Shown: piece after piece, positions 5,233 to 31,529 of the stretch
Layout: each line of letters starts with the position of its first letter
How positions within the stretch are numbered: position 1 is the stretch's first letter
Assembly (NCBI GenBank): GCA_903897335.1
Contig: CAIUAY010000140.1
Location: forward strand, 1 to 37,937
DNA: 37,937 nt
Source: an uncultured Chromatium sp.
GTDB taxonomy: Bacteria; Pseudomonadota; Gammaproteobacteria; Chromatiales; Chromatiaceae
Reading direction: 5' to 3'
Notes under the pieces: generated by a model
Told to the model about the DNA's origin: nothing
Seen by the model: the letters and a program-made list of their open reading frames with translations, nothing else
Database searches by the model: none
Translations under genes and position numbers: made by a program

Positions 5233-5503
5233 GGCGGCTGGATGGTGACGGGATAACTCGCTGGAGACCGGGGCAAAGAAACACTGGCAACGCGGTCAGA
5301 TGCCATCAATCTACAGGGCGCATTGAAAAATGCAAGACAGAGACACCTTAAATAAGGTGAGTTCTGGTTATTATTCTTTGCAAGTCAGCATTTTAATCTG
5401 ATCTGATGTTTATCGAGGCTTTGCAAGCCGGCCATCAACATCCACATAAATTAGCTCAATGTACTGATTCATATTGAATAATAGACAAAACTCACGTCAG
5501 CTT

Positions 5504-5547
5504 AAAAAACGATGGCAGACTTCGCGATGGATGCGCTGTGAAGTCTG
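5504..5547 (-). terminator. Putative intrinsic terminator downstream of epmB
   Basis: Perfect 8-bp inverted repeat CAGACTTC (5516-5523)/GAAGTCTG (5540-5547); minus-strand T6 at 5504-5509 follows the stem after about 6 nt. Confidence 0.55.
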
Positions 5548-5648
5548 TCTGGATTGACGCGCAGCGCCCGACATTTGATCTGACATTGCGCCAAAAACGG
5601 GGCGTGACCAGGTGTGCTGGAACAGCGCAGAACACATCTGATGCGCCA

Positions 5649-6674: not shown

Positions 6675-6675
6675 C

Positions 6676-10778: not shown

Positions 10779-10937
10779 AGGATCCTCGCCTGCGCTACCG
10801 GCGACCATCGAGCAAGGCTTGCTCTGAACGGAGCCGAAGGGATGGAGGTAGATAATTGAGAGACAGCCGATCAAGCTACCCCAGAACGATAGTCAGGATC
10901 AACTCTGGAATGCCATCACGTTCTTGCGCGCCAGACA

Positions 10938-10966
10938 GGACACGCTGCAATATCCGCAGCGTGTCC
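10938..10966. terminator. Strong hairpin just downstream of the EF-G paralog, possible terminator
   Basis: GGACACGCTGC / GCAGCGTGTCC perfect 11-bp stem, 7-nt loop; no clear T-run on the minus side, so terminator role is uncertain. Confidence 0.45.
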
Positions 10967-10976
10967 TGATTTGAGA

Positions 10977-13165: not shown

Positions 13166-14242
13166 CTAACGAGATTGGCATCCCAATCCGACATTGAGGA
13201 TGTTTTGCGCCGCGTTGATATCGCGGTCGTGCGTTGCTCCACAGTCCGAGCACACCCAATGTCTCACTCCAAGCCCGCTCAACCCTTGCGGGCGGCTGTC
13301 GGGAATCGTCCCGCAGCACGAACAGGTTTGGGTACTGTACGCTTCGTTGACTTCCGCAAACACGACTGACTGCCCGATGGCTTTGTACGTCAGTTGTGTC
13401 TTGAGCATGAACCAACCGGCATCCAGGACAGACTTTGCCATCTTGGTTTTGACCAGCTTGGCGCTGCTTACGTCGCCAACGACGATCATCCCGTGCGATT
13501 GCACGATCTTTGACGAGAACTTGTGAATGGAATCCTTGCGACGGTTTTTGATCTTGGCGTGAAGGTTGCGGACTTGCTTTGTGTTGCCTGCCCGTTGCGC
13601 CTTAGCGAGTGTTTCCTCGGCGTTGCGATAGAACTGACTGGCGTCCAGCCTCACGCCATCCGAACAGGTGGCGTAGTCTTTTAGTCCAAGATCAATGCCA
13701 ATCGCCGACGTTTGGCCGTTGTGCCGGATCGGGACGCTGACGGCGACGTTGAAGTACCACCGCCCTCGCGCATCCTCGGAGAAACAGCCGGAACGAAAAT
13801 CGTACTGGCTCAGTCCATAGCTATCCCAGACTTTGAAGAACTGGCCGTGATAGCGCACCTGGCCGTTCTTCCAGACGGCAGACCCAACCTTGAATGGAAT
13901 CCAGCCTAATGCACGTTTCGATCCGCCAGAACACCGCCAGCGCAGTTTGTCTTGCTTGAACTGACGGCGCTTCTTGCCGTGTTCGGCGATGACTTCCTGG
14001 TAGGTGTGCGAATGCAGATGTGGCGCACGTTCGGCGCGCATCGGTTGCAGCGACTTTTGCAGAGCGAAGGCGGAAGTCTCGCCGTTTATCCAGCCGACGC
14101 CGGGGATCGGAATCCTGGAAAACTCTGCCGATTCCGCATTCGCGGCGTTCCAGACCTGATTCACTTCAAACGCGAGTTGCCGCAACCGCTTGGCGTGCTT
14201 GTCGCGGATGCGGACTGAAAGCGTTTTGGTCTGTGTTTCCAT
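13166..14242 (-). CDS. tnpB: TnpB (OrfB) RNA-guided endonuclease family, variant RuvC-II
   Basis: AIGIDLGLKDYATCSDG (RuvC-I Asp), CSCCGTIPDSRPQGLSGLGVRHWVCSDCG zinc ribbon, THDRDINAAQNIL (RuvC-III Asp). Confidence 0.93.
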   Translation of the reverse strand: METQTKTLSVRIRDKHAKRLRQLAFEVNQVWNAANAESAEFSRIPIPGVGWINGETSAFALQKSLQPMRAERAPHLHSHTYQEVIAEHGKKRRQFKQDKLRWRCSGGSKRALGWIPFKVGSAVWKNGQVRYHGQFFKVWDSYGLSQYDFRSGCFSEDARGRWYFNVAVSVPIRHNGQTSAIGIDLGLKDYATCSDGVRLDASQFYRNAEETLAKAQRAGNTKQVRNLHAKIKNRRKDSIHKFSSKIVQSHGMIVVGDVSSAKLVKTKMAKSVLDAGWFMLKTQLTYKAIGQSVVFAEVNEAYSTQTCSCCGTIPDSRPQGLSGLGVRHWVCSDCGATHDRDINAAQNILNVGLGCQSR

Positions 14243-14365: not shown

Positions 14366-14863
14366 ATGACCCTAACGTTGCGATCAAGTGCTTTTCACGA
14401 TGGTGATTCACTGCCCAAGCGTCTGACCTGCGAAGGCGAGGATCGCTCGCCACCGTTAGCATGGGAAAACCTACCAGAAGGCACGGCCAGTCTGGTGCTG
14501 ATTATCGACGATCCGGACGCGCCAGACCCGGCGGCACCCCGGATGGTGTGGGATCACTGGATTCTCTATAACCTGCCGCCAGACTGTCCTGGGCTGGATG
14601 AAGGCGTGACGGGCGCTGAACTGCCGCATGGAACCGGTGAAGGCATCAATAGCTGGGGACGCACCGGCTACGGCGGCCCCTGTCCGCCGGTGGGTCGGCA
14701 CCGCTATTTCCATCGACTCTATGCGCTGGACATCCGTTTGTCGCCGGAACTCGGCACGCCGCAAAAGGATGATCTGCTGCTGGCCATGGACGAGCATATT
14801 CTCGCCCATGCCGTGCTGGTCGGCACCTACGCAGCGCAGACCGATCATCAGGGGCGAACGTGA
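14366..14863 (+). CDS. YbhB/YbcL-type phosphatidylethanolamine-binding (Raf kinase inhibitor-like) protein
   Basis: LTCEGEDRSPPLAWENLPEGTASLVLIIDDPDAPDP...WDHWILYNLP...GPCPPVGRHRYFHRLYALD. Start 14366 preceded by GGAGGACAAGCG. Confidence 0.93.
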   Translation: MTLTLRSSAFHDGDSLPKRLTCEGEDRSPPLAWENLPEGTASLVLIIDDPDAPDPAAPRMVWDHWILYNLPPDCPGLDEGVTGAELPHGTGEGINSWGRTGYGGPCPPVGRHRYFHRLYALDIRLSPELGTPQKDDLLLAMDEHILAHAVLVGTYAAQTDHQGRT

Positions 14864-16140
14864 TCGATGGTAACAGTCACGGAGGCGGTATCGCCTGGAT
14901 GCACCGGCTCGGTTTGGCCTTCGAAATCACCACGTTGCGCCGTAGCCTGACCGGTCAGCGAGATGCGGGCGCCAACCATCACCTCGGCAAAGGCGGATAA
15001 CCGCAATGCCGGGCTCATCGCCAGACTGTCATCCAGGGTGACTGTGCGTGGGAGATCCTGCACACGCAGCCGCTGCACCGCCAGCGGCATCGGTGGTCCC
15101 GATACGGCACGGGCAAAGATAAAGACGGTCTGGTCGGGCGTGGTTTGCGCAGTGAGCGCCGGATCAAGCCTAACCGTGACGTTCAGAGTGCCCCCGGCAA
15201 TCTTCGCTGATGACTGGTCGCTGGCTGCGGTCTTCTGGTCGGGCTGATCAACGCTGTCAGCAGACACCGCTTGCTGACCGACGCGCCCTCTGGCCTCATC
15301 GATCATTTCGCGCAGATTTTTGGCCTCCTCGCTGCCTGGTTCCAACTCATCGAAAATCTTCTGCCAGATGTCTAACGCATCCTGATACTGGCCGTGCTGA
15401 TAGAGAATCATCCCGGACAGCCAGCGGGCGTTGGGATTGGCTGGCTCCTGCGCCAGCGCGGCCTGGATCAGTTCAGCCGGTTTTCCGTCGAGACGCTTGC
15501 CCTGGCCGGACGTGGCGAGTGCTTCGGCATAGGCCAGCATCACCTCGGTTTGATGAGGTGCCAGCTCATAGGCTTTGGTGATGGCATCCAGTCCCTTCTG
15601 CATGTCGTTGATTGCGAAGTAGGTGCGTCCCAGCATTAGCCAACCGTCCAGGTTGGCTGGATTCTTTGCGAGACGCGCTTCCATCCGCTTGACCAGATCC
15701 TCGATGGGTGGCGCATTCTGTTCGGTGGTCGCGGGTTGAGCCTGACCGCTGGCCGCCGCGTCCAGACGGGGGAGGATGTCCTGATTGCCCAGCGTGAGAT
15801 AGAGGAGCACCGCCGCCAGAGGCAGCATCACCGAAAGCACGCTGGCCAGTGCCCAGCGGCCTGCGGCAGAAGTGGGCTTGAGTTCAGGCGCGGCCTGCTC
15901 GTCAAGATCGTGCAGCAGATCGCGCTCCAGATCACGACGGGCAGCGGCGTACTGATCCTGATCCAGAAAACCGGCGGCAAGATCGGCGTCCAGCTCTTTG
16001 AGACGCTGCTGGCAAATGCTGAGATTGAGCGCATCCTGCACCGGTGCATCCGCGCTGGTTTCCTGACGCCACAGCGGGAGAATGATAAACGACAGCGCGA
16101 GCGTGGTCAGGCCGGCGGCGAGAATCCAGAATATGATCAT
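14848..16140 (-). CDS. ccmI: c-type cytochrome biogenesis protein CcmI (TPR)
   Basis: MIIFWILAAGLTTLALSFIILPLWRQ...RLKELDADLAAGFLDQDQYAAARRDLERDLLHD, TPR region, downstream of ccmH. Confidence 0.9.
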   Translation of the reverse strand: MIIFWILAAGLTTLALSFIILPLWRQETSADAPVQDALNLSICQQRLKELDADLAAGFLDQDQYAAARRDLERDLLHDLDEQAAPELKPTSAAGRWALASVLSVMLPLAAVLLYLTLGNQDILPRLDAAASGQAQPATTEQNAPPIEDLVKRMEARLAKNPANLDGWLMLGRTYFAINDMQKGLDAITKAYELAPHQTEVMLAYAEALATSGQGKRLDGKPAELIQAALAQEPANPNARWLSGMILYQHGQYQDALDIWQKIFDELEPGSEEAKNLREMIDEARGRVGQQAVSADSVDQPDQKTAASDQSSAKIAGGTLNVTVRLDPALTAQTTPDQTVFIFARAVSGPPMPLAVQRLRVQDLPRTVTLDDSLAMSPALRLSAFAEVMVGARISLTGQATAQRGDFEGQTEPVHPGDTASVTVTIDHVRP

Positions 16141-16144
16141 TGGC

Positions 16145-16645
16145 TTAAATATCTTGATGGTCGTGTTTTTGGGCAAGGAGCTGGTTCAGGCGGGCGCGTT
16201 CGTCGGCGCTGAGTTCCGCCTGTTCGGGTTCAGACTTCTTGCGTTGCAGTGTGCGCAGCAGACGCCAGCCACCAAACCCGACCAGCAGGAATGGGCCAAA
16301 CCAGAGAATATAGGTCGAAGGCTTGATGGGCGGTTCATAGAGGACAAAATCACCATAGCGGGCAGTCAGAAACGCGATCACCTGCTCACGGCTCTGACCC
16401 TCGCGCAGCATCCGGTAGACCTCCTTACGCAGATCCTCGGCGACCCCGGCCTGCGAACCGGCCAGTGATTCGTTCTGACACACCAGACAGCGCAGCTTGC
16501 CGATCAGGTCGTGAAATTCATTGAACTTGGCGGGATCGTCAAACGTGAATTCTTCGAGCGTGTAAGCCTGTGCCGTGCTGAACACCAGCGCAGTCGCCAG
16601 CAGCACGCCCGACAAAACGGTTTGCATCAGATTGGTTAATCGCAT
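16145..16645 (-). CDS. ccmH: Cytochrome c maturation protein CcmH
   Basis: LIGKLRCLVCQNESLAGSQAGVAEDLRKEVYRMLREGQSREQVIAFLTARYGDFVLYEPP. Confidence 0.95.
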   Translation of the reverse strand: MRLTNLMQTVLSGVLLATALVFSTAQAYTLEEFTFDDPAKFNEFHDLIGKLRCLVCQNESLAGSQAGVAEDLRKEVYRMLREGQSREQVIAFLTARYGDFVLYEPPIKPSTYILWFGPFLLVGFGGWRLLRTLQRKKSEPEQAELSADERARLNQLLAQKHDHQDI

Positions 16646-16648
16646 GGT

Positions 16649-17188
16649 TTATTGTGACCGGTAGCGTTTGATGATGGGGAGAATTTCAGACTCCCAGACA
16701 GCACGATCAATCGGGCCGATCCGTTTGTGACGGATGATGCCCTCGCCGTCCACCACGAAGGTTTCAGGCGCGCCATAGACACCCCAGTCGATCCCCGCCT
16801 TGTTATCAGGATCAAACAGGATTGCGGCGTAGGGGTCGCCGTACTGACGCAGCATCTGCAAGGCTTCCGGGCGCGTGTCTTTCCAATTGAATCCGATCAC
16901 CTGAATGCCCTGTTCGTGGGCGATCTGCATCAGTTCGCCATGCTCCTGACGACAGGATGGACACCAGGATGCCCAGACGTTGACCAGCGAAACCTTGCCG
17001 CGCAGCACCTCCTGAGTGAGGGTCTGGCCGGGGTCTTTGAGCGACTGGAGCGCAAAGGCTGGCGCCGGTTTATCGACCAGTGGCGATGGCACTGTGCGTG
17101 GATCCAGTCCCAATCCGTAAAACAGCAGCGCGGCCAGGGCGATGAAAATGCCTAGCGGGATGAGTGCGCGTGACGCAGATGGACGCAT
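16649..17188 (-). CDS. ccmG: Thiol:disulfide interchange protein CcmG/DsbE
   Basis: VSLVNVWASWCPSCRQEHGELMQIAHEQGIQVIGFNWKD...GVYGAPETFVVDGEGIIRHKRIGPI. Confidence 0.95.
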   Translation of the reverse strand: MRPSASRALIPLGIFIALAALLFYGLGLDPRTVPSPLVDKPAPAFALQSLKDPGQTLTQEVLRGKVSLVNVWASWCPSCRQEHGELMQIAHEQGIQVIGFNWKDTRPEALQMLRQYGDPYAAILFDPDNKAGIDWGVYGAPETFVVDGEGIIRHKRIGPIDRAVWESEILPIIKRYRSQ

Positions 17189-17202
17189 GTGTGTTCTCCA
17201 GC

Positions 17203-19182
17203 TTAGAGCGTGGTCGTGACCGCGCTGTCAGGCACGGCACGCGCAGTACGGTAACGGCGGTCAGTGACAGTCAGCAGACCGCCCAGCGCCATGAAGAGTG
17301 TTCCCAGCCAGATCCAGCGGACATAGGGCTTGTAATAGATTCGCAACGCCCAGTCGCCGCGCACCCCGATGGGTTCGCCAAGCGAGAGATAAATGTCGCG
17401 CAGGAATCCGGCATCAATCGCCGCCTCGGTCATGGGCATCCCGCCTGAAAAATATTTGCGCTTTTCGGGATAGAGCCGGGTGATCTCATGATCGCCCTGA
17501 TAGATCACGAACTCACCCCGGAAGGCGTCATAATTGGAGCCTTTCGTCACCTCGACGCCATTGAACTGGAAGCGATAGCCCGCTTCTTCGTGGATTCCGC
17601 CGGGTGACAGACGGATGTCTGTCTCGGAGCCATGATTGGACACCATGGTGACGCCGACGATAAACACCGCAATGCCCGCATGAGCCAGCCACATGCCGTA
17701 ATAACTGCGGCTGTTGCCAGCGAGATCCGCGCCCAGTCCCTTGAGACCACCGCCCTGGTGCCGCAGACGCTGCGCCAGACTGATGACATGTGCTGCAACC
17801 AGCCATGCGGCCATACCCAGCCCGAAGCCGACAGCTAGATTGCCACCCGGAATAAGCTGAAATGCGGCAGCAAACAGTGTCAACAGACCGAGTGCCAGCG
17901 CCAGCCACAGCGAGCGCAGCAGGCGCTTCGGCTCATCGTGCTTCCAGTGTGTCAGCGGGCCAATCCCCATCGCCAGAATCAGCAATGGCGACAGAAACAC
18001 GAACATCGTGTTGAACCACGGAAACCCAACCGAGATCTTGCCCCAACCGGCGGCATCATAAATCAGCGGCGCAAGCGTGCCGAACAACACCAAGACCGCC
18101 AGTGTCGCGAGCAGCAGATTGTTCACCAGCAGCAGGCTTTCGCGTGACACCAGATCAAAGCGTCCACCGCCCGTGATCGCGGGCGCGCGCCAGGCATAGA
18201 GCGCCAGCGAACCGCCGATGACAATACACAGAAACAGCAGGATAAAGGTGCCACGAGCCGGATCGGTGGCAAACGCATGAACTGATGTCAGCACCCCAGA
18301 GCGCACCAGAAAAGTGCCGAGTAGGGACAGCGAGAAAGCCGAGATTGCCAACAGCACAGTCCAGTTCTTGAACGCGGCGCGTTTTTCGGTAACGGCCAGC
18401 GAATGAATCAGCGCAGTTCCCACCAGCCACGGCATGAACGAGGCATTTTCGACCGGATCCCAAAACCACCAGCCGCCCCAGCCGAGTTCGTAATAAGACC
18501 ACCAGGAGCCGAGCGCGATGCCAATGGTGAGAAACACCCAGGCCACCGTCGTCCAGGGTCGTGACCAGCGTGCCCAGGCCGCATCCAGCTTGCCGCCAAT
18601 CAGTGCCGCGATGGCAAAGGCAAAGGCCACCGAGAACCCGACATAGCCCATATAAAGCATCGGCGGATGGATCGCCAGACCGGGATCTTGAAGCAGCGGA
18701 TTGAGATCGCGCCCTTCGAGTGGTATCGGAAAGATCCGGTCGAACGGGTTTGATGTCAGCAGCATGAACAAGAGAAAGCCGACCGCGATCATGCCCTGCA
18801 CCGAGATCACGCGGGCAATCATGACCAGTGGCAAGTTGCGGCTCAATGCACCCACCGCCGCGCCCCAGCCGGCCAGCATCAGCACCCACAGTAGCAGCGA
18901 GCCTTCATGCGCGCCCCAGATCGCTGACACCTTATAGAGCGTTGGCAGCAGCGAATTCGAGTTGGTTGCCACATAGACGACCGAGAAATCATCGGTCAGA
19001 AAGGCTTGCAGCAGACACAGAAAACTGATTCCGATAAACGTCAGTTGACCCCAGGCGAGCGGACGCGCCAGTTCCATCCAGGAACGATTGCCAGCGAAGG
19101 TGCCAATCAACGGCACCGTTGACTGCACCAGCGCGAGCATCAGCGCCAGAATCAACGTGAAATGACCAAGTTCAGGCACCAT
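17203..19182 (-). CDS. ccmF: Heme lyase CcmF
   Basis: 659 aa polytopic; WGAHEGSLLLWVLML, WSYYELGWGGWWFWDPVENASFMPWL (WWD motif), ERFAFDPARGTF-like region. Confidence 0.96.
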   Translation of the reverse strand: MVPELGHFTLILALMLALVQSTVPLIGTFAGNRSWMELARPLAWGQLTFIGISFLCLLQAFLTDDFSVVYVATNSNSLLPTLYKVSAIWGAHEGSLLLWVLMLAGWGAAVGALSRNLPLVMIARVISVQGMIAVGFLLFMLLTSNPFDRIFPIPLEGRDLNPLLQDPGLAIHPPMLYMGYVGFSVAFAFAIAALIGGKLDAAWARWSRPWTTVAWVFLTIGIALGSWWSYYELGWGGWWFWDPVENASFMPWLVGTALIHSLAVTEKRAAFKNWTVLLAISAFSLSLLGTFLVRSGVLTSVHAFATDPARGTFILLFLCIVIGGSLALYAWRAPAITGGGRFDLVSRESLLLVNNLLLATLAVLVLFGTLAPLIYDAAGWGKISVGFPWFNTMFVFLSPLLILAMGIGPLTHWKHDEPKRLLRSLWLALALGLLTLFAAAFQLIPGGNLAVGFGLGMAAWLVAAHVISLAQRLRHQGGGLKGLGADLAGNSRSYYGMWLAHAGIAVFIVGVTMVSNHGSETDIRLSPGGIHEEAGYRFQFNGVEVTKGSNYDAFRGEFVIYQGDHEITRLYPEKRKYFSGGMPMTEAAIDAGFLRDIYLSLGEPIGVRGDWALRIYYKPYVRWIWLGTLFMALGGLLTVTDRRYRTARAVPDSAVTTTL

Positions 19183-19646
19183 CAGTTGGTTGCTCCGGTC
19201 GTGGCGGATTGAGTCACGCCTTCCGCATGGGCGGTTTTAAGCGTGCTGGCGACTTCAGGCGGAACATAATCCTCATCGTGCTTGGCCAGCACTTCGTCTG
19301 CATAAAAGATTCCGTCAGCACCCAGTTTGCCCTTGGTCACCACGCCTTTTCCTTCGCTGAAGAGATCAGGCAGGATGCCGGTATAGGCCACTTTCACGGT
19401 CTGCGCGTTATCGGTCACATCGAAATAAACCGTGAGGCCATCGGGCTGACGCTTCAGCGTTCCCGTAGTCACCAATCCGCCCAGCCGGAACACATGATCA
19501 GCCGGTGATTCCTTGGCGATCACCTGAGAAGGGCTGAAAAAATAGGAGATATTGCTCTTGAGTGCAGTCAGTGCCAGGGCCGATGCAGTGCCGATGCCAA
19601 GGATTGCCAGACCAACAAAGATCAATCGTTTCTGTCTTGGTTTCAT
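19182..19646 (-). CDS. ccmE: Heme chaperone CcmE
   Basis: FRLGGLVTTGTLKR...YTGILPDLFSEGKGVVTKGKL...ADEVLAKHDEDYVPPEV (heme-binding His motif). Confidence 0.95.
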   Translation of the reverse strand: MKPRQKRLIFVGLAILGIGTASALALTALKSNISYFFSPSQVIAKESPADHVFRLGGLVTTGTLKRQPDGLTVYFDVTDNAQTVKVAYTGILPDLFSEGKGVVTKGKLGADGIFYADEVLAKHDEDYVPPEVASTLKTAHAEGVTQSATTGATN

Positions 19647-19651
19647 GTTTT

Positions 19652-20140
19652 TCAGTGTGCGAGGTTTAAGTCATGAGTAAATGATTCGCCTTGAATTTCC
19701 ATGCTCTGAGGCAATCGACCATCTTTAGAATAGAAAGAGATATTCCCGTTTTCATTCACGATCCAAACTTCGTTTGCTCCCTGAGCAAGATAAAGCTGGA
19801 TTTTTTCATCAATCTCGCCTTTTGAATTCGATGGCGACGTGATTTCAACACAAATTTCAGGCGCTTTTTTATACGGCGTGTCGAAATGATATCTTCCAAT
19901 AAATGAATCTGATGCCCAGGCGACATCAGCAACCTTCACACCATCGCTGGTTTGAATCGAACACTCCATAATGATTTTTCCGCTTTGCTTGCGCTGATCG
20001 ATATATGAACCAATTTCATACTGAAGCCTTCCGTGATGATTTGTTGCGGGACTCATCAGAATCTGACCCCACTTATTGAGTTCGATCTTGAATGGCAAGT
20101 TTTTCAAATAAGGATCGCTGATCGCCTGTTTCCAATCCAT
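19652..20140 (-). CDS. Uma2 family (DUF820) putative restriction-endonuclease-fold protein
   Basis: NHHGRLQYEIGSYIDQ...VKVADVAWASDSF...APEICVEITSPSNSKGEIDEKIQLYLAQGANEVWIVNENG. Confidence 0.87.
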   Translation of the reverse strand: MDWKQAISDPYLKNLPFKIELNKWGQILMSPATNHHGRLQYEIGSYIDQRKQSGKIIMECSIQTSDGVKVADVAWASDSFIGRYHFDTPYKKAPEICVEITSPSNSKGEIDEKIQLYLAQGANEVWIVNENGNISFYSKDGRLPQSMEIQGESFTHDLNLAH

Positions 20141-20207
20141 TTTTGATGACCTTTATCTGATTGCGATGCAATTTTTCTCTGAAAAAATAATACGCTTCAA
20201 GCACTTG

Positions 20208-20239
20208 TTTGATCCCATCGAGCAGGATTTGGCATTTTT
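20208..20239. repeat. Direct repeat copy A (relict of the restriction-modification gene 3' end)
   Basis: tttgatcccatcgagcaggatttggcattttt; 29/32 identical to 20809-20840 by eye; encodes CQILLDGIK on the minus strand. Confidence 0.75.
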
Positions 20240-20296
20240 CTCGAACGCGCCAGATGGCTTCGAAAACGCGGAAACCTCCATACATCACGGATAAAA

Positions 20297-20536
20297 TCAG
20301 GCGACGTCTTGCAACAAATTAACGAGATCTTTGCCGGATGTGACTTTAGGCAGCGGCTTGTTATCCTGTTTATAGAGTTCGACCACCTCTTCCACGATTT
20401 GGCACAGCTCATCAAAAACAGCTTTTTCATCGTTGCCGTGACAGCCACCAAACATGAGTCCAGGGCAACTGCCCACATAGCATCCATCTTCCTCTGACCA
20501 TTCAACGATTTTCGCGTATCGGGCGCTCTCTTTCAT
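20297..20536 (-). CDS. hicB: HicB-family antitoxin (short form)
   Basis: YAKIVEWSEEDGCYVGSCPGLMFGGCHGNDEKAVFDELCQIVEEVVELYKQDNKPLP; follows hicA with 4-nt overlap. Confidence 0.88.
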   Translation of the reverse strand: MKESARYAKIVEWSEEDGCYVGSCPGLMFGGCHGNDEKAVFDELCQIVEEVVELYKQDNKPLPKVTSGKDLVNLLQDVA

Positions 20537-20730
20537 TTCTGTGATTCCGTAATTGCTTTTTGCACCGCCTTAACAAGATACCGCTGGGCGTCATCACCGA
20601 GTTTTCCAGATATTGTGATTGGTTTTGTGACTTTTTGGTGAACGTAATTTCGATGACTGCCTTTCCCGCCACGATCCACAAACCCGGCCTGATCCAACAA
20701 GGCCATCATTTCACGAACTTTCGGAGGCAT
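20533..20730 (-). CDS. hicA: HicA-family mRNA interferase toxin
   Basis: MPPKVREMMALLDQAGFVDRGGKGSHRNYVHQKVTKPITISGKLGDDAQRYLVKAVQKAI; GSHRNY motif with catalytic His. Confidence 0.9.
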   Translation of the reverse strand: MPPKVREMMALLDQAGFVDRGGKGSHRNYVHQKVTKPITISGKLGDDAQRYLVKAVQKAITESQK

Positions 20731-20805
20731 TAAACTGCACTCTTATTATCCTCAGCCGGTGAGTGCCGACTATTTCATTCAGACATCGCGATGAACCCAT
20801 CGTGT

Positions 20806-23800
20806 TTATTTGATCCCATCGAGCAGAATTTGACGTTTTTTATTTTCCAAATCCTTGATTACATAAGTTTTAGCTTTTTCTTCCAATATCTCAATAGCCT
20901 TGACGATCTTCTCTTGCACCTGCAATGGTGGTAGTGGGATGAGTAATTGTCTAAGAATTCGACTGTTCAAACTTTTCCCAAAAGCCTTCCAGCCAGAGTC
21001 AAGGTCAATAAGGCGGGAGTTAAATACAGAAAATAGATACTCTTTAAGGCAAGAATTGTTATTCTTGATAACAAGCCCTGCAATGGCTTCATTTGTGTAA
21101 AGGTTTGTTCCTGCAATAGCAGTTCGTCCTATTGATAATTTAAACGATAGCAGCGTTGTTCCTTCAGGGATTAATTTTACGTTCGAGTTTTTCACCCCTT
21201 GGTCGTTAATTTTCTCTTTTGTGTCAGTTATTATTTGACCGTTCATCTCTGCAATGGAAACCCAGAGATTTATTCCGTTCTCATAGTATTCGGTTTTCTT
21301 CCTACTTGGTGTCCCACCAATACGAACATCACAAATTCCCTCTTCACCACCCAACGGCACCAGCGGATACTGCGTATCGAACACCGGCGCGGTGGTGGCT
21401 TCTGTCGGTGACAGATTGATCGCCAGCTCGCAGCCGGTGCGGCTGAAATCGAAATAGGCAGGCGTGGGTGCAGTGCGGAGTTTGTCGGCAAGCGGCGAGC
21501 CGTCAGGCAGGTCTTCCGGCTCAGTCCCTAAAAAGGCACAGCGAAAATGATGCGCGGCCTTATCTGCTGGTTCGTCGCGGCGGTCGGTGTCTGGCGTGTA
21601 AAGTCGTCCGCCGTCGAATGGCTCGCGCAGAAACACCATGCCCTCAGCACCGCGCCGCTGGCTCCATTTGTAACCAAGAAACGTCTGTTCTTCGGCTTTG
21701 CCGCTGGCACTACGCAGGACGGTTGTGATCTGTGGGATCAGTTCGCCTTTCTCAAAATCCGCGACATGCGCCAGCGCGAAATAGATGAACTTGGTTTTTT
21801 CGGCCTCGCGGCAGTGGCGGAGGAATTTACCGCGCAGTTCGGCCTGCTGTTCAGCTTTCGGTTGTTTTTGGAAACTCTTTTGATCGCGGCGACGCTTGAT
21901 CTCGGCCAAGTCGTCAAATTCGCGCTGATAGGCGTTAAACAGCGTGGCGGCTTCAAGGTCTTCGGGTAATTCGTTGGTGGGGTCGGCCAGCCATTTGCAA
22001 TACAGCTCAAAATCCAGCCCGGCAGTGGCGCAGTAGGCGCGTAGCAGGTCGCTGTCGGCGTAGTCCTCATCACGCAACTGTTTATCTTCATCAAACAGCG
22101 CATCGGCGCGGATGCTGAAATGATCATGATGGGTATCGGGACGGCGCTCCAAGAGCAGAATAACGGTATTGGTGCCGGTGGCGATAAAGGCGCTGCCGCC
22201 CAGTTCGACGATGCCGCGCAGCAGGAATTTCTCCAGCAGCAGTGCGCGGGTGCGCTGGTAGATGCCGCTGTTGCTGAGGATGGACGAGGGCAGGATCAGC
22301 CCGGCCAGTCCACCCACGGTCAGAAGTTGCGCGGTGCGTTCGACAAACAGCGTTTCAATCTCGCCGCTGTTGGCGGTCAGGTGCGCCAGCAGTGCAAACT
22401 GGTTATTGCGTAGATCCAAGTGCTGCTTGAAGTCCTTGACCGAATACGGCGGATTGGCGACCAGCACATCGACCGTGCCAGGCTTGGGCAGCAGTGGGTT
22501 AGCATGATCAAGTCCATCCTCGTGCAGGATGTTGGCATCGCCCGCGCCGTGGAGAAACATGGCGATCTTGGCGGTGCGGGCAAGACGGTAGTCTTTCTCG
22601 ATGCCCCAGACATGATCTCGGGTCCAGGCGGTATTGACGGCTTGCGGGAGACCAAGCGCGGCAAGGTCTTCCTGGATTTCTTCAATGATTTCGGTGAGGA
22701 AATGGGCGCTGCCGCAGGCGTAATCCATAACGCTTGGAATGACGTGGTGCTGGCCGGATTCGTGCGCGGCGGCAATACGTTCGCGTAGCGGCAGACAGCG
22801 CACGATAAAGCGTGCGATAGGAATCGGCGTGAAAAATTGACCTTCGGATTGCTTGAAACCGCTGTTGAGCAGCAACTCGAACAGGTTGCCCAGAAATGCC
22901 TGCTTGCTGGTGTATTTCAGGCGGTAGCCCTGGAACAGCTCGACCACCTCGCGCACCACCTGGGTGTTTTGCTCGAAGAGCTTTTTGTTGTGAACTTCCT
23001 TAAAAGCAAAATCATTGTTGGTATAGAACTTGAGCGCACGGAAGATTTTTTTGACTTCGTTACGCGCCATGTCGCGGCGATGCGCCATGAAAGCGTTGTC
23101 GATGTCACGCTCTTCAAAATAGGTGATGTCCTCGCCAAGCGCGTCTTTCATGCCGCGCTTGTAAAGCCGTTGCAATCGGTCAATCAGATCTTCTGGGGTG
23201 TCCTTGTTGGGAAACCACTGAAAATCGAGAATCTCGTCGGCGGTGCGTGCCTCATCAACCAGCTTGGCGAGGATGATGGCGCACAGACGGTTAAAGGCGT
23301 TTTCCTTGTCGGACACATTGTTGTGCCGCAGGATCTCCATGAACTGATTGAAGACCCGGTTGCTGCCGTTGTCGCCGTTGAATTCTTTGAGATCCTTGAC
23401 GCGCCTGGGCGTGTAGCCGATGGCATAGGGTGTGAATTCGTCCTCGAAGATGCCGACGTTCTGAATGGCCGCGTCGTAAGTGGTTTTCCAGACATGATGC
23501 AGCGTTTCACGGTTGTGGGCGTGTTCAAACAGCGGCACAGACTGACGTGCGGCGCTGTGGTTTTCTGCTTTTTCCTTTCTGGCAAACTTGTCTTTTGCCT
23601 CGGCTGAATCCATGACCTGGATGATGTCGCAGCGATAATCAATGTCGCCCGCAAGTGTGTTGAGCCGGGATGAATAGATGCAAAGATGGGTGGCACTGCG
23701 ATCCTGTTGCAGATAGCCAAAGATCTGCCCGCCGTCTTGCAACGTCCGCAATCGCTCAACATCGTGTTCCACGCCGAAGGTCTTGCATTCGATGATCAGC

Positions 23801-24165
23801 AACGGCGGGGCGTTGTCCTGTTCACTGGGATCGCTGACCCGCCGCCGCACGACGATGTCACTCTTGCCACCTGAAGCCCCGCGCCCGACCTGATAGCGTT
23901 GCTCCAGAATCAGTGTTGCGGGATCGTAGCCTTTCGCCAGCAGGCGGCAGACGCATTCCAGCACGACAAAATTTTCTGGGTGGTCAAAATTGCTGGTGGT
24001 GCGGTCGCCAAGCACGATAGGCCGGGGATAGTCGATGGTGCGTCTGGCGGTATCGACTGTAATGACGTACTCGCCCGTTGCGGAAGACGCAAAGCGGCGT
24101 TCCCAGCAATCAGGGGCGATGCACTCGAAGTGCAAGATGCTGAAAAAGTGTGAATGATTGGTCAC
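20806..24165 (-). CDS. Single-chain restriction-methylase-specificity protein (type IIG-like / type I-related fusion)
   Basis: 1119 aa: N-terminal HsdR_N-like PD-(D/E)xK signature GKSDIVVRRR...LLIIECKT; N6-adenine methylase motifs VMDYACGSAHFLTE and LVANPPYSVKDF; C-terminal single HsdS-like target recognition domain DVRIGGTPSRKKTEYYENGINLWVSIAEMNG...NSRILRQLLIPLPPLQVQEKIVKAIE. Confidence 0.88.
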   Translation of the reverse strand: MTNHSHFFSILHFECIAPDCWERRFASSATGEYVITVDTARRTIDYPRPIVLGDRTTSNFDHPENFVVLECVCRLLAKGYDPATLILEQRYQVGRGASGGKSDIVVRRRVSDPSEQDNAPPLLIIECKTFGVEHDVERLRTLQDGGQIFGYLQQDRSATHLCIYSSRLNTLAGDIDYRCDIIQVMDSAEAKDKFARKEKAENHSAARQSVPLFEHAHNRETLHHVWKTTYDAAIQNVGIFEDEFTPYAIGYTPRRVKDLKEFNGDNGSNRVFNQFMEILRHNNVSDKENAFNRLCAIILAKLVDEARTADEILDFQWFPNKDTPEDLIDRLQRLYKRGMKDALGEDITYFEERDIDNAFMAHRRDMARNEVKKIFRALKFYTNNDFAFKEVHNKKLFEQNTQVVREVVELFQGYRLKYTSKQAFLGNLFELLLNSGFKQSEGQFFTPIPIARFIVRCLPLRERIAAAHESGQHHVIPSVMDYACGSAHFLTEIIEEIQEDLAALGLPQAVNTAWTRDHVWGIEKDYRLARTAKIAMFLHGAGDANILHEDGLDHANPLLPKPGTVDVLVANPPYSVKDFKQHLDLRNNQFALLAHLTANSGEIETLFVERTAQLLTVGGLAGLILPSSILSNSGIYQRTRALLLEKFLLRGIVELGGSAFIATGTNTVILLLERRPDTHHDHFSIRADALFDEDKQLRDEDYADSDLLRAYCATAGLDFELYCKWLADPTNELPEDLEAATLFNAYQREFDDLAEIKRRRDQKSFQKQPKAEQQAELRGKFLRHCREAEKTKFIYFALAHVADFEKGELIPQITTVLRSASGKAEEQTFLGYKWSQRRGAEGMVFLREPFDGGRLYTPDTDRRDEPADKAAHHFRCAFLGTEPEDLPDGSPLADKLRTAPTPAYFDFSRTGCELAINLSPTEATTAPVFDTQYPLVPLGGEEGICDVRIGGTPSRKKTEYYENGINLWVSIAEMNGQIITDTKEKINDQGVKNSNVKLIPEGTTLLSFKLSIGRTAIAGTNLYTNEAIAGLVIKNNNSCLKEYLFSVFNSRLIDLDSGWKAFGKSLNSRILRQLLIPLPPLQVQEKIVKAIEILEEKAKTYVIKDLENKKRQILLDGIK
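20809..20840. repeat. Direct repeat copy B (3' end of the restriction-modification CDS)
   Basis: tttgatcccatcgagcagaatttgacgttttt, encodes RQILLDGIK*. Confidence 0.75.
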
Positions 24166-24186
24166 GTCACGCCGCGTCTAAAGCCA

Positions 24187-24216
24187 CTCTCCCACTGGGA
24201 AGAGGGGAGAGATTTT
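24187..24216. repeat. Inverted repeat at the ccmD / restriction-gene junction (possible plus-direction terminator or REP-like hairpin)
   Basis: CTCTCCC (24187-24193) / GGGAGAG (24205-24211) followed on + by ATTTTT, abutting the ccmD stop codon at 24216. Confidence 0.5.
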
Positions 24217-24383
24217 TACTGGTCATGTTCGCCGCGCAGCCGGATTAAGCGCCCCAGACGCGCCAGAATCGTTCGCTGTTGCGCCCGCAGTTGCAGGATT
24301 TCGGCCAGCAACACCAGCGCAACCATGCCATAGGCACCCCAGACGAAAAAGGCATAGCCGCCTTGTGCAAAAAATTTGGTCAT
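24216..24383 (-). CDS. ccmD: Heme exporter protein CcmD
   Basis: Not in the ORF track (55 aa). Reverse complement reads MTKFFAQGGYAFFVWGAYGMVALVLLAEILQLRAQQRTILARLGRLIRLRGEHDQ*; ATGA overlap with the ccmC stop; FxxGGYAFFVWGAYG is typical of CcmD. Confidence 0.92.
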   Translation of the reverse strand: MTKFFAQGGYAFFVWGAYGMVALVLLAEILQLRAQQRTILARLGRLIRLRGEHDQ

Positions 24384-25138
24384 GCCCGGCCTCCGTCGGT
24401 TAAGAGCTCATGCACCCAGGTACTCTCCGCCTCGCGTGTCAGGATGATGCCGCGCAATCGCATGAATGTGGTGGCAAATGAATACATCCAGAAGGCCAGC
24501 ATCATGGTCAGCATTGCAAAGAGGATGTTGCCGTCGATTTTGGTCAGGTTGGAACGCTGATGCAGCGCGGCGCACTGGTTCGGGTCGGGACAGTTGATCG
24601 ACCAGAAGATGACCGGAACCATGACCAGTCCAACAATTGCCAACAGCGCGGCAGCGCGATCTGCACGACGGATGTCGTCAATGGCTGAATGCAGCGCCAT
24701 GTAACCGATATACATGAACAGCAGCACCAGTTCCGATGTCAGGCGCGGATCCCAGTCCCAATAGGTGCCCCAGCTTGGACGCCCCCAGAACGCACCAGTC
24801 CAGAGCGCCAGGAAGGTGAAGATGGCTCCGGTCGGCGCAATCGCGTTGGCCATCATGAACGACAGCCGGGTGTTGAACACCAGCCCGATGGCGGCCCAGC
24901 CAACCATGACGACATACAACCACATCGACATCCAGGCCGAGGGGACATGGATGAAGATGATGCGGTAATACTCTTTCTGCGGGTTGTTGCCACCGAGTCG
25001 GTCAACGGTCTCGAAAAAGCCCCAATAGAGACCAACGATGAGCAGAACGACCGTCAGAATCCAGAACACCGGAATCAGTCGTCCAGCGGTGGGATAGAAG
25101 GATGCGGGAGATGCGAGTTTAAACCAGTTGGGGGTCAT
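24380..25138 (-). CDS. ccmC: Heme exporter protein CcmC
   Basis: IIFIHVPSAWMSMWLYVVM, FWGRPSWGTYWDWDPRLTSELVLLFMYIGY (WWD-type motif). Confidence 0.96.
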   Translation of the reverse strand: MTPNWFKLASPASFYPTAGRLIPVFWILTVVLLIVGLYWGFFETVDRLGGNNPQKEYYRIIFIHVPSAWMSMWLYVVMVGWAAIGLVFNTRLSFMMANAIAPTGAIFTFLALWTGAFWGRPSWGTYWDWDPRLTSELVLLFMYIGYMALHSAIDDIRRADRAAALLAIVGLVMVPVIFWSINCPDPNQCAALHQRSNLTKIDGNILFAMLTMMLAFWMYSFATTFMRLRGIILTREAESTWVHELLTDGGRA

Positions 25139-25210: not shown

Positions 25211-25697
<487 letters not shown>

Positions 25698-25731
25698 TTT
25701 ATCTATCTCCACAGTCAGTCATGATCGAAGA

Positions 25732-26403
25732 CTATTCGATAGAAATCCGCAACGCTGCCGCCGATGCCACCGGCGCAAAGATCAGCGCAACCATCAGAAA
25801 CGCTCCCAGCAATGTAAGATAAGGCCGGGTATCTGACAAATCGATGACACTGACCTCCACCGCCCCCGCGCCATAGACCAGCACCGGAATATAAAGCGGC
25901 AGAATCAGGAGCGACAGCAGAATGCCTCCACCGCGCAGACCGAGCGTGAGTGCCGCGCCGATGGCACCGATCAGACTCAGAACCGGGGTGCCAAGCAGCA
26001 GCGAGAACATCATGACGCCAATGGCGGTTTCGGTCAGGTGATACTGCATCCCAACCAGTGGTGCGATCAGCACCAGCGGCAGCCCGGTCAGGAGCCAATG
26101 CGCGGCGATCTTGGCCAGCACCAGCAGCCCCAGCGGTTGTGCGGTCAGCAGCATCTGCTCCAGCGTACCGTCGTCATAGTCCGCTGCAAACAGCCGTTCC
26201 AGCGCCAGCATCGAAGCCAGCAGCGCCGCCACCCAGACCACTCCGGGGCCAAGGATGCGCAGAACCTGATGCTCAGTGCTGACGCCAAGCGGGAAGAGGC
26301 TGACCACGATCACGAAAAAAAACAGCGTGGTCAGGACATCGGTACGCCGACGCAGAGCCAGCGTCAGATCGCGTATGAGAATGCACCAGAAAACGCGCAA
26401 CAT
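25732..26403 (-). CDS. ccmB: Heme exporter protein CcmB
   Basis: FWCILIRDLTLALRRRTDVLTTLFFFVIVVSLFPLGV...LGPGVVWVAALLASMLALERLFAADYDDGTLEQML. Confidence 0.95.
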   Translation of the reverse strand: MLRVFWCILIRDLTLALRRRTDVLTTLFFFVIVVSLFPLGVSTEHQVLRILGPGVVWVAALLASMLALERLFAADYDDGTLEQMLLTAQPLGLLVLAKIAAHWLLTGLPLVLIAPLVGMQYHLTETAIGVMMFSLLLGTPVLSLIGAIGAALTLGLRGGGILLSLLILPLYIPVLVYGAGAVEVSVIDLSDTRPYLTLLGAFLMVALIFAPVASAAALRISIE

Positions 26404-26409
26404 GTCGTT

Positions 26410-27039
26410 TCAGTTCCCCAGATCCAGACGTGCGACCTGACCGGATGTCAGGGGCACTTCCTGATGTGTCGTCAGAACCGCCAGCCCGCCATCTGCAACA
26501 TGCGCGGCGATCAAACCCTGTAATAAGGTCACGGCATCCGTGTCCAGCGCGGTAAATGGCTCATCCAGCACCCAGAGTTTTGCCGTGGACAGAATCAGTC
26601 GCGCCAGCGCCACTCGTTTTTTCTGGCCTTGAGACAACATTCGGGTGGGCAGATCCTCAAAACCCTTAAGCCCGATGCGTTGCAGCGCATCCCAAATGGC
26701 TGATCGATCCACCTGATCGCCGTCGAGCGTCGCCGCGACAGCGAGATTTTCGATGCCGGTCAGATCGCCTTTGATGCCGTTGAGATGTCCAAAATAGAGC
26801 AGATTACGACGGTAATCCTCGCCCAGATGACGGATGGATTCACCTTGCCAGCGAATTTCGCCATGCTCCGGCGTAAACAGCCCGCAGAGCGTGCGCAGGA
26901 GCGTGGTTTTACCGCTGCCGTTGCGCCCGCGCACATGCAGCAGGGTACCGGCATCGAGGCTGAAATCGAGTCCGCTAAACAGCCGTCGATCACCGCGTCG
27001 GCATTCGAGTCGGGTCACGTCAAGGATAGAATCGGCCAT
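26410..27039 (-). CDS. ccmA: Heme exporter ATP-binding protein CcmA
   Basis: VRGRNGSGKTTLLRTLCGL (Walker A), LSQGQKKRVALARL signature, LWVLDEPFTALD (Walker B). Confidence 0.95.
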   Translation of the reverse strand: MADSILDVTRLECRRGDRRLFSGLDFSLDAGTLLHVRGRNGSGKTTLLRTLCGLFTPEHGEIRWQGESIRHLGEDYRRNLLYFGHLNGIKGDLTGIENLAVAATLDGDQVDRSAIWDALQRIGLKGFEDLPTRMLSQGQKKRVALARLILSTAKLWVLDEPFTALDTDAVTLLQGLIAAHVADGGLAVLTTHQEVPLTSGQVARLDLGN

Positions 27040-27045
27040 CAGTGG

Positions 27046-27783
27046 CTATTGGGTTCCTGGAGATCCGTTAGGTTTCGGCAGTGTATCAAGGGTTAATTCA
27101 ATCCAGTTCTCGACACGTTCATTGATCTCAGCGGCTTTTTGACCCTGAGTATCCAAGGCTGACCCGGCCACCATGTCGATGGTTCCCGGATATTTGATGA
27201 AGCGTCGCCGTCCCCAAAAATAACCGGCATTGTGCGCAATCGGAACCACGGGGTAGCCGGTCTGTTCAGCAAGGAGTGCGCCGCCGATGGCATAGGGGCG
27301 ACGGGTTCCAGGCGCAACCCGGGTGCCTTCCGGGAAGATGACGACCCAGCGTCCTGCCGCCAGTCGCTGCCCACCCTCACGGACGAGTTGAACGACCGCA
27401 CGACGGCCAGCAGAACGGTCGATGGCAATCGGTTGAAGACAGCCCATGGCCCAGCCAAAAAATGGGAGACGCATGAGTTCCTGTTTCAGAACCCAGCTTT
27501 GTTCAGACGGAAGCAGTCCGCGTAATGCAATCGTTTCCCATGCCGATTGATGTTTTGCCAGCACGATGCTGTTCGTGTCAGGCAGATTTTCAAAGCCATG
27601 CAGTCGGTAATCGAGCCGACAGATCAGGCGCAGTGCGGCTAGATTCGACAGACCCCAGCGACGAGCGAGTTGCGAGACCCAGCGCGGACGCCTGATCCAG
27701 TGTGCCAGCAGCATCGCAATCGAAAACAGGATGCTGGAGAGGAGCAGAAAGAGTTGATAGAGCAGTGAACGCAATAACAGCAT
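27046..27783 (-). CDS. plsC: 1-acyl-sn-glycerol-3-phosphate acyltransferase
   Basis: VLAKHQSAWETIAL acyltransferase block I, VIFPEGTRVAPG block III, PVVPIAHNAG. Confidence 0.88.
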   Translation of the reverse strand: MLLLRSLLYQLFLLLSSILFSIAMLLAHWIRRPRWVSQLARRWGLSNLAALRLICRLDYRLHGFENLPDTNSIVLAKHQSAWETIALRGLLPSEQSWVLKQELMRLPFFGWAMGCLQPIAIDRSAGRRAVVQLVREGGQRLAAGRWVVIFPEGTRVAPGTRRPYAIGGALLAEQTGYPVVPIAHNAGYFWGRRRFIKYPGTIDMVAGSALDTQGQKAAEINERVENWIELTLDTLPKPNGSPGTQ

Positions 27784-27786
27784 GGA

Positions 27787-28359
27787 TTAGCCTCGATCAT
27801 GCAGCAGACGATCAGCAACGGCGCTGAGATCCTGACAGACCGCAACAGCGTCCAGAAGATCCGCGTGTTGCTGCATCGTTGTCAGTGTGCGTTTGCCCTT
27901 GCCGGTCATCACCAGCCATGGCGCGGCGCCAACCTGACGCGCAACGCGGATGTCATTGAGCGTATCGCCAATCACCGGAACTCCGGCTAGGTCGACATTC
28001 ATCCGGCTGGCAATCTCGTCGAACAGCCCGGTTTGCGGTTTGCGGCATGAACACTGATCGTCAGGGCCGTGCGGACAGAAGGCGATCATCTCGATACGTC
28101 CACCCTGTGCTGCGACCAGATCCCGCAATGTTTGGTGCATGGCATTCAGGTCACTGAGCGAAAAGAGTCCACGCGCAATTCCCGATTGATTGGTGGCAAT
28201 CGCAATCCGATAACCGGCCTGGGAGAGCCGTGCAATGGCGGCAATGCTTCCCGGAATAGGCTGCCATTCATCCAGTGATTTGATGTAGTCATCCGAGTCT
28301 TCGTTGATGACGCCATCACGATCCAGAATCAGGACGGGTTCAGCGGTGGATGGAATCAC
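27787..28359 (-). CDS. gmhB: D-glycero-beta-D-manno-heptose 1,7-bisphosphate 7-phosphatase
   Basis: LILDRDGVINEDSDDYIKSLDEWQPIPGSIAAIARL, ATNQSGIARGLF, CPHGPDDQCSCRKPQTGLF (zinc-loop Cys). Confidence 0.93.
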   Translation of the reverse strand: MIPSTAEPVLILDRDGVINEDSDDYIKSLDEWQPIPGSIAAIARLSQAGYRIAIATNQSGIARGLFSLSDLNAMHQTLRDLVAAQGGRIEMIAFCPHGPDDQCSCRKPQTGLFDEIASRMNVDLAGVPVIGDTLNDIRVARQVGAAPWLVMTGKGKRTLTTMQQHADLLDAVAVCQDLSAVADRLLHDRG

Positions 28360-30434
28360 AGTGATTGAAGACGCGACAGATCGGCAACCAGCATCAGAAG
28401 TCCCGCCAGCGATTGCAGAAGCCGCAGACGGTTGTGGCGCACCCGGAGGTCATCTGACATGACCATGACCTCGGTGAAGAACGCATCGACATCCTCTTTC
28501 AGATCTGACAAAGCATCCAGCAGATTTATGTAGTCGCGCTGTTTAACAAGCGGATCAAGGCGTTCGCTTAACTCTCCAATGCGCGCTGCCAGCCGTGCCT
28601 CGGCAGGTTCAGTCAGAAGTGCCGGATCAATGCGTCCTGTATCGATACCATCAACCTTGTTCAGAATGTTGCGGATGCGTTTATTGGCGGCAGCCAGCGA
28701 CGTCGCAGCAGGTAAACGGCGGAAGGCGGTGACAGCGGCCATCCGCTGATCCATGTCCCAAGGATTAGTTAGCCCGGTCTGAATCACGGCCTCGACGGTA
28801 TCACCGGCGATGCCACGGTCACTGTAATACCCCTGCAAACGTTCGAGCATGTAGGCAAACACCGCCGCGACAGTATCCTCAGTCAGCATTCCGGGTGCAT
28901 AACCTTCATAGGCAGTCTGTAGCAGTTCGCTCAAATCGAGATCCAGCGGCGTCTCGATGAGCAGACGCAGCACGGCAATGGATGCTCGCCGCAGGCCGTA
29001 AGGATCACGGGCGCCGGTTGGACGCAGACCGATACCAAAGATGCCGACCAAGGTGTCGATCCGGTCGGCTAGCGCCAGCGCGATGCCACAACTGTTGGAT
29101 GGCAGCCGGTCACCGGCAAACCGTGGCAGATACTGTTCCTGCATCGCGGCGCACAGATCAGGGTCTTCCTTGTCGTGCTGCGCGTAGTAACGCCCCATGA
29201 TCCCTTGTAGATGCGGGAATTCAAACACCATGGAGGTGACGAGATCGCATTTGGCCAGATGCGCGGCGTGTTTAATCAATTGTGGGTCGGCACCCAGCAG
29301 TGGTGCCAGTGTGCGACCCAGACGCGCCACGCGCCGGCTTTTCTCGGCAATCGTGCCCAGTCTGTCCTGAAAGACCACTGTTTCTAAACGTCCCGCGAAG
29401 GCGGAGAGCGGCTGTTTCAGATCGTTCGACCAGAAGAATGCGGCATCCGCGAAGCGCGGACGGATAACCCGTTCATTGCCAGCCCGGATCAGTTCAGGAT
29501 CGCGGCTGACCAGATTGGTGATCGCAATGAAACTGGCCTGGAGGACGCCATTGCCATCATCGACTGGGAAATATTTCTGATGGCTCTGCATGGTCTCGAT
29601 CAGCACTTCTGGCGGCATTTCCAGATAACCAATATCGAAACGACACAGCAGCGCCTGTGGCCATTCCACCAGCGCCGTGACTTCATCAAGCAGGTCGCTG
29701 TCGATTTGAACGTGCAGACCATGCGCCTGCGCCAGTGCCTCAACCTGTTCACAGATCAGGTCACGCCGACGCGCAAAGGATGCCTCGACATAACCCGTGG
29801 CGCGTAGTACTTCGGGGTAGTCGGATGCCGAATACAGTGCAATGGGATCGGGATGATGGAAGCGGTGTCCCCGGGTGGATGGCGTCGCCGCGATGCCCAG
29901 CACGGTTCCAGTGATGGGCTGATCTCCCAGCATCAGACAGATCCATTGCACCGGGCGAACAAACTGCGCTTCCCGATCCCCCCAGCGCATCCGTTTTGGG
30001 ATCGGGAGTGCTGCCAGCGCGGCCTCAGTCATGGCCGGGACAAGTTGAGCAATCTCCATCCCAGGGCACGCGCTGTGATAGCTCAGCCAGGCACCCTTGC
30101 CGGTCTCTTCGCGTCCCAGTTTACTGAACTCAACACCGCAGGAGCGCGCAAAGCCAAGCGCCGCAGGCGTGGGTTGACCATCAGCGGTGAAGGCCGCTTG
30201 GACGGCAGGGCCGCGCCGCTCGATGATCTGGTCAGGCTGGCGGGTCTGCGTCCCGCGCACCAGCAGCGCCAACCGACGTGGCGTGGCAAAGGGCTCAATC
30301 GTTGAGAACGCGATGCGCTGTGACTCAAGCTGAAGCTGAAACTGTTCAGCAAACGCCTGTGACAAGCTGGACAGAGACTTAGGCGGGAGTTCCTCGGTTC
30401 CGATCTCGATCAATAGATCAGCATGGGTGTCCAA
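28356..30434 (-). CDS. glyS: Glycyl-tRNA synthetase beta subunit
   Basis: [21 protein letters not shown] (TTG start 30434 inferred), [48 protein letters not shown]. Confidence 0.95.
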
Positions 30435-31353
30435 GCATCTTCTCCCGCGAAGTTGGCAGCATAGGGAAGCCAAGCGCCTCCCGGCTTTCGTAATAAGTCT
30501 GCGCGACGGCGCGTGACAGTGTGCGCACGCGCAGAATGAAACGCTGGCGCTCGGTGACTGAAATCGCGCCCCGCGCATCCAGCAGATTAAATGAGTGGGA
30601 TGCACGCAAGACCTGCTCGTAAGCTGGCAGGGGCAGACCTTTGGAAATCAGCTCGGTGCTGATGCGCTCGCAGGTATCGAACTGGGCAAACAGTGCGGCG
30701 GTATCGGCGATCTCAAAGTTGTAGGTTGACTGCTCGACCTCGTTCTGATGAAAGACATCGCCATAGGTCACGGTTCCGGTCGCAGCTTTGCTCCATGCCA
30801 GGTCGTAGACACTTTCGACCTCCTGGAGATACATGGCGATGCGTTCGAGTCCGTAGGTAATCTCGCCGGTGACGGGGCGACAGTCCAGACCGCCGACCTG
30901 CTGGAAATAGGTGAACTGGGTGACTTCCATGCCGTTGAGCCAGACTTCCCAACCCAGCCCCCACGCGCCAAGCGTTGGTGATTCCCAGTTGTCTTCTACA
31001 AAGCGGATGTCATGCGCCAGCGGGTCGATTCCCAGATGCCGTAATGAATTCAGATAAAGTTCCTGGATGTCGTCTGGCGAGGGCTTGAGCACGACCTGAA
31101 ACTGGTAATAATGCTGGAGACGGTTGGGATTCTGGCCGTAACGTCCATCAGTTGGACGGCGCGAGGGCTGAACGTAGGCGCAACGCCAGGGTTCCGGCCC
31201 GATCGAGCGCAGAAAGGTCGAAGGATGGAAGGTTCCAGCACCGACCTCCATGTCAAAAGGTTGCACGACGACACAACCGAGATCAGCCCAATAACGTTGC
31301 AGGGCAAAAACAAGACCTTGAAAGGTTGATAAATCCTCGGATGCGAGACTCAC
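30418..31353 (-). CDS. glyQ: Glycyl-tRNA synthetase alpha subunit
   Basis: [46 protein letters not shown]...[31 protein letters not shown]; start (GTG 31353 or ATG 31377) uncertain. Confidence 0.96.
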
Positions 31354-31529
31354 AGCAGGCAGGCTCCCTGGAAACACGGCAGGAACGAAGGCCGATCAGT
31401 ATATCGGTTAGAACCAGGTCAATGCCAATAGGAGAATCTGGCGGTCAGATTGGGGGATTGTGCCAACAAGACGCTCATCGCTGGGACGGTTATCATTATC
31501 AGCAGATTTTGCTAAGTCAGGATAGGATC

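Follow-up and report, generated by a model that had tools for sequence, protein, structure and literature searches.

Co-directional guest genes at two junctions of the cytochrome c maturation operon in a Chromatiaceae genome

The cytochrome c maturation (ccm) operon of an uncultured Chromatium sp., a purple sulfur bacterium, was analyzed on contig CAIUAY010000140.1 of assembly GCA_903897335.1 (C140 in our numbering), the whole stretch of which, 37,937 nucleotides, is called the window below. The ccmA to ccmI genes lie there in canonical order, all on the minus strand, and are interrupted at two junctions. A 4.6-kb block between ccmD (24216..24383, -; PF04995, TIGR03141) and ccmE (19182..19646, -) contains a fused restriction-methylase-specificity (RM-S) gene, a hicA gene, a HicB-like gene and a Uma2 gene, every one in the operon direction. 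A second insert, a DUF4160-DUF2442 gene pair, splits ccmA-D between ccmB and ccmC. The original prediction, which was made from the letters of the window, placed ccmA-D and ccmE-I on one strand in canonical order with a gap of about 4.6 kb between ccmD and ccmE, and every coordinate was confirmed; the second insert was not part of it. Judged from sequence comparison, the ccmD-ccmE block is a derived insert, selfish genes seem to have found shelter in this important operon repeatedly, and the guests probably share the ccm operon transcript. The explanation that we consider likely is that these are derived, co-directional guests at a recurrently used insertion place in a core operon, which ride the host transcript and are kept by addiction. 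The guests would be transcribed together with the ccm genes from an upstream promoter, ccmE would be reached by read-through, and its translation would be coupled to the stop codon of Uma2. Such guests would be tolerated because no gene is broken and transcription is not blocked, and would persist both through addiction and because their removal risks damage to ccm.

The state of the junctions in relatives was determined by a census of the family, into which 112 of about 197 positive genomes were entered; ccmC and ccmE lay on one contig in 108 genomes. The gap between ccmD and ccmE had a median of 2 bp over 112 loci. Among the matches listed, the median ccmC-ccmE distance in the 108 genomes was 190 bp, a distance above 500 bp was found only in the window genome (G000), G005 and G064, and the ccmD/ccmE junction was broken or filled in four of the seven same-genus genomes (G000-G006) versus one of 102 others. 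G003 was counted as affected, as it has extra genes at two contig ends, on both sides of the junction. The ccmB/ccmC junction is occupied in six of the same-genus genomes and broken, as judged by the neighbouring genes, in the seventh (G006). Compact ccmD-ccmE junctions are the rule among relatives, and both ccm inserts are derived. The empty ccmD-ccmE junctions in the ccm loci of relatives bear out the insertion that had been predicted, and an ancestral origin of the insert in the family was rejected on the basis of the census. In G064 (L150/L187), ccmC and ccmE are 12.8 kb apart, and two co-directional open reading frames (ORFs), to which no function was assigned, separate a ccmD from ccmE. 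Two further gammaproteobacterial genomes, one of which is labelled Methylobacter, have a co-directional ORF of about 300 aa and unassigned function located between ccmB and ccmC (L052, 4967-5866, and L056, 7567-8460), which suggests that this junction is in use elsewhere too.

An artificial joining of unrelated contigs has a negligible probability. The window genome is indeed a draft (3.29 Mb in 277 contigs), but open frames cross both junctions, the same Uma2-ccmE join is present in G003, and G005 and G004, which are separate assemblies, are disrupted as well. Related genomes have inserts at this junction in assemblies made independently, one of them sharing Uma2, which argues that the insert is neither chance nor artefact.

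The guests differ from genome to genome and turn over. At the ccmD/ccmE junction, G005 carries BrnT, a gene in the BrnA position, two unassigned ORFs, HicB and HicA, and G003 carries a PIN toxin and a small partner, together with an orphan antitoxin-like gene, a hicA remnant with a frameshift, and Uma2. The Uma2 gene beside ccmE in G003 is 68% identical to that of the window, and the hicA remnant is also common to G000 and G003. A 247-bp antitoxin block is common to G003 and G005 (91%), and a 77-bp remnant stands immediately before ccmE in G003, G004 and G005. At the ccmB/ccmC junction, the DUF4160-DUF2442 pair is found in G000, G004 and G039, which belongs to another genus; an 85-aa RHH gene is found in G003 and G005, and in G001 and G002 a PIN gene is accompanied by a small gene. 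These swaps are confined exactly to the interval from the ccmB stop to the ccmC start. In total, about 10 guest modules of the toxin-antitoxin (TA), restriction-modification (RM) and Uma2 types were found at the ccm junctions of G000-G005 and G039, all co-directional with the operon. The simplest reading of the shared remnants is an old foothold with later exchange of modules. In the ccm tree, G000 is grouped weakly (61) with G003-G005, and given this weak join the ccmD/ccmE foothold may represent one event or two. The 77-bp remnant was also considered as a mobile-repeat vehicle and was rejected, as it is single-copy in each of the three genomes.

The turnover of the guests bears on the proposal, made in the original prediction, that a defence module is functionally coupled to cytochrome c maturation. 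One form of such a tie would be a sensor by which failing ccm expression sets off the toxin. The recurrence of addiction modules at two ccm junctions in one genus would fit a functional tie, but the identity of the guests varies, intact relatives do without them, remnants decay (the frameshifted hicA of G003 and the antitoxin-only RHH gene), and unrelated operons host the same hicAB family. As the guests turn over while ccm stays, the proposal is unsupported, and a functional tie of any such kind is considered very improbable. The RM-S enzyme and the TA pairs probably keep their usual defence and addiction activities, unrelated to haem or cytochromes.

A neutral hotspot would explain the same turnover differently: one early insertion would have created a non-essential place to land, chance would account for the later exchanges there, and co-transcription and addiction would be irrelevant. 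The shared remnants and the single clade that covers most ccmD/ccmE cases fit this scheme, as does the abundance of TA and Uma2 genes across the genus, which also weighs against the reading of guests kept by addiction on the host transcript. The consistent co-direction and the enrichment of TA-type over arbitrary genes among the ccm guests are at odds with it, and we regard a neutral hotspot as unlikely.

The Uma2 stop codon lies 5 nt ahead of the ccmE start, and the CGGAG-type ribosome-binding site that precedes ccmE in uninterrupted relatives is absent in G000, G003, G004 and G005; together these two features make coupling of ccmE translation to Uma2 plausible. No promoter was found on the coding strand of the ccmD-ccmE insert by a scan with a crude sigma-70 consensus, which is weak evidence. 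Co-direction and the Uma2-ccmE spacing favour a transcript shared with the host operon as the most likely arrangement. Several observations count against it, beginning with the crudeness of the promoter scan. In G004, the gene order is permuted, with ccmE-F-G-H-I followed directly by ccmA-B-(DUF4160-DUF2442)-C-D (L183, 5431-13511), so that ccmE-I is detached from ccmA-D and has a divergent gene upstream. In G006 and G078, ccmC onward is detached from ccmAB, and in G078 an antisense gene, recognized by eye as rlmL, stands between ccmB and ccmC (L132, ~8800-11100). The split operons of G004 and G006 and the antisense gene of G078 indicate that other sites can evidently drive the downstream ccm blocks. 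The same arrangements speak for an operon that was split by the insert, in which a promoter within the insert, such as one in the 156-bp gap between hicB and Uma2 or in the AT-rich 3' end of the RM-S gene, drives ccmE-I and the guests are self-expressed. The insert is AT-rich at 19.5-21.4 kb, and the loss of the ccmE ribosome-binding site means that some new arrangement exists. The failure to find a consensus promoter, the 5-nt distance between Uma2 and ccmE and the uniform direction of the guests argue the other way, and the split of the operon is held to be rather unlikely.

The same hicAB family was found in other core operons. Of 210 genomes in the family, 60 have a relative of the window hicB, which in most of the examined loci lies next to hicA; the surroundings were surveyed in 20 of these 60. 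The pair is inserted in the ntpI/ntpK junction of the V-ATPase operon in G002, 13 nt past ntpI (G001 retains hicB alone there). G032 has it between kdsA and eno, alongside a DUF486 gene, G142 between the MoxR and DUF58 genes, and G149 between acnA and purB, and in G005 and G037 it stands upstream of ilvC (loci L217, ~4406-7253, L216, L205, L211, L219, L203 and L204). In all of these cases hicAB points in the operon direction. The majority of the other sampled hicAB loci have non-core or mixed surroundings, and the G044 copy faces the end of an ATPase operon. A HicB protein without a DNA-binding domain would lack self-repression, and a pair of this kind would benefit if a host operon determined its expression. 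A more general scheme is possible, which we put forward tentatively: TA modules of Chromatiaceae, including hicAB pairs with an antitoxin that has no DNA-binding domain and so no self-repression, may have given up their own promoters and lodge co-directionally at core-operon junctions (ccm, V-ATPase, kdsA-eno, MoxR-DUF58), where host transcription would set their dose and clean loss would endanger a core function. The footholds might later serve as operon breakpoints, as at ccmD/ccmE in G004 and ccmB/ccmC in G006.

The largest guest is the RM-S gene (20806..24165, -), a Type IIG-like gene of 1119 aa with a GTG start, which according to profile matches (PDLC03624, 7e-233; N6_Mtase; Methylase_S) unites the restriction, methylase and specificity functions on a single polypeptide. 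Its motifs look intact: SDIVV near residues 102-106 and IIECK at 124-128 (the D103..E126xK region), DYACG at 481 and NPPY at 571. A single target-recognition domain (TRD) is followed by the common C-terminus KRQILLDGIK, whereas the closest homologue (67%, at another locus of G005) and two more distant homologues have two TRDs. Type IIG enzymes with one TRD exist. The G+C content at third codon positions is host-like (0.68) in the restriction and methylase parts and 0.37 in the TRD; the values for hicA, hicB and Uma2 are 0.42, 0.53 and 0.42, respectively, versus 0.59-0.74 for the ccm genes. A 35-nt piece of the RM-S 3' end, which encodes KRQILLDGIK (copy A, 20806..20840, -), recurs 601 nt away as a remnant 3' of hicB (copy B, 20205..20239, -; 89% identical), so that hicAB lies between two RM-S 3' ends; this suggests that hicAB may have entered by recombination at, or along with, such an end. 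No target-site duplication or terminal inverted repeat was recognized at the insert ends by a repeat search and by eye. A plasmid origin was considered and rejected: the best plasmid relative of the RM-S protein has about 30% identity, HicB had no match, and Uma2 matched five records at 42% identity or less. The gap between ccmD and the RM-S gene contains a hairpin, CTCTCCC..GGGAGAG (24187..24211, -), which was discarded as a mobile-repeat vehicle, there being just 10 such inverted repeats genome-wide; as a terminator it shows no T-run and its stability is no greater than that of shuffles.

The contents predicted for the island were supported by profiles for the RM-S, hicA and Uma2 genes; the hicB assignment is based on other features. 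The hicA toxin gene (20533..20730, -) encodes a PF07927 domain (4e-9) with a GKGSH stretch that includes the GSH motif and the catalytic His. The HicB-like antitoxin gene (20297..20536, -) encodes 79 aa, and the protein on its own had no match to Pfam, NCBIfam or PDB profiles. A fold search ranked HicB first for it, weakly and non-significantly, and a single-sequence structure model (69.7 pLDDT) gave no significant fold match. Its identity is derived from its overlap with hicA by 4 nt, from a sequence resembling HicB and from the pairing with hicA that is kept in many relatives. No DNA-binding domain was detected in the 79-aa protein; by themselves, HicB domains probably do not bind DNA, except where fused to such a domain (PMC2701414). 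The Uma2 gene (19652..20140, -) encodes a predicted nuclease of the PD-(D/E)XK type (PF05685, 1e-16), whose domain scored 60.9 bits versus a cut-off of 27, and the family profile was kept. In the ccmB/ccmC insert, the DUF4160 gene, a DhiT-type toxin gene (25464..25712, -; PF13711, 6e-19), overlaps by 17 nt with the DUF2442 gene, a DhiA-type antitoxin gene (25211..25480, -; PF10387, 4e-14; ATG at 25480 by alignment). The DUF4160/DUF2442 pair is known as the experimentally validated TA system dhiTA of Dickeya (PMC8198452). The match of the window DUF4160 to the DhiT equivalog NF048015 is weak (22.8 bits, below the cut-off of 100), which indicates the same domain pair and not a close DhiT orthologue.

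The usual view is that insertions are kept out of core operons. A single operon here is seen in successive states: it is compact in relatives, has two occupied junctions, has exchanged guests, and in sister species is broken at the same junctions. This series lets one genus address whether TA genes can rely on host-operon transcription rather than self-regulation, and whether such guests are the first step of operon break-up. Among the closest known systems is ccdAB between folA and apaH of E. coli, described as a chromosomal TA islet at a plastic intergenic site (PMC7232551), where a TA module likewise occupies a short gap between genes that relatives leave empty and that undergoes repeated insertion. 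In contrast, the window sites lie within a co-directional core operon, two junctions are used, and unrelated TA and RM families alternate, all co-directional. RM units move with genome rearrangement (reviewed in PMC3874152), and the compact RM-S gene in a conserved locus and the rearrangement at the same junction in G004 resemble such units; the RM-S gene differs in having no recognized target duplication or terminal inverted repeat and in being accompanied by TA and Uma2 genes. Like Type IIG enzymes (PADLOC PDLC03624; the BsaXI RM subunit in PDB), the RM-S protein combines a PD-(D/E)XK domain, an N6-methylase and an S-type TRD in one chain, but relative to its closest homologues it has lost one TRD. 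The window pairs are similar to the type II HicAB and DhiTA families (PMC2701414, PMC8198452) in their toxin-first order and short overlaps and differ from them in lying inside a host operon; the HicB of the window has no detectable DNA-binding domain, as noted for unfused HicB domains (PMC2701414). In a partial coverage of the literature, which makes for weak evidence, no report was found of TA modules within a ccm operon, and no description of two junctions of one core operon reused by alternating TA and RM families or of one hicAB family spread over several core operons.

The remaining ccm genes in the window are ccmA (26410..27039, -), which starts 6 nt past the plsC stop, ccmB (25732..26403, -; TIGR01190, 6e-72), ccmC (24380..25138, -; TIGR01191) and ccmF, ccmG, ccmH and ccmI (14848..19182, -). 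The closest named relative of CcmF is that of Candidatus Thiodictyon intracellulare (78%). The glyQ, glyS, gmhB and plsC genes, named by eye, run into ccmA co-directionally (26410-31377, -), and this arrangement together with the 6-nt plsC-ccmA gap suggests that the ccm promoter may be far upstream. Near the 3' end of the operon, an ORF at 13166-14242 (-) resembles, by eye, a TnpB gene of the IS200/IS605 family.

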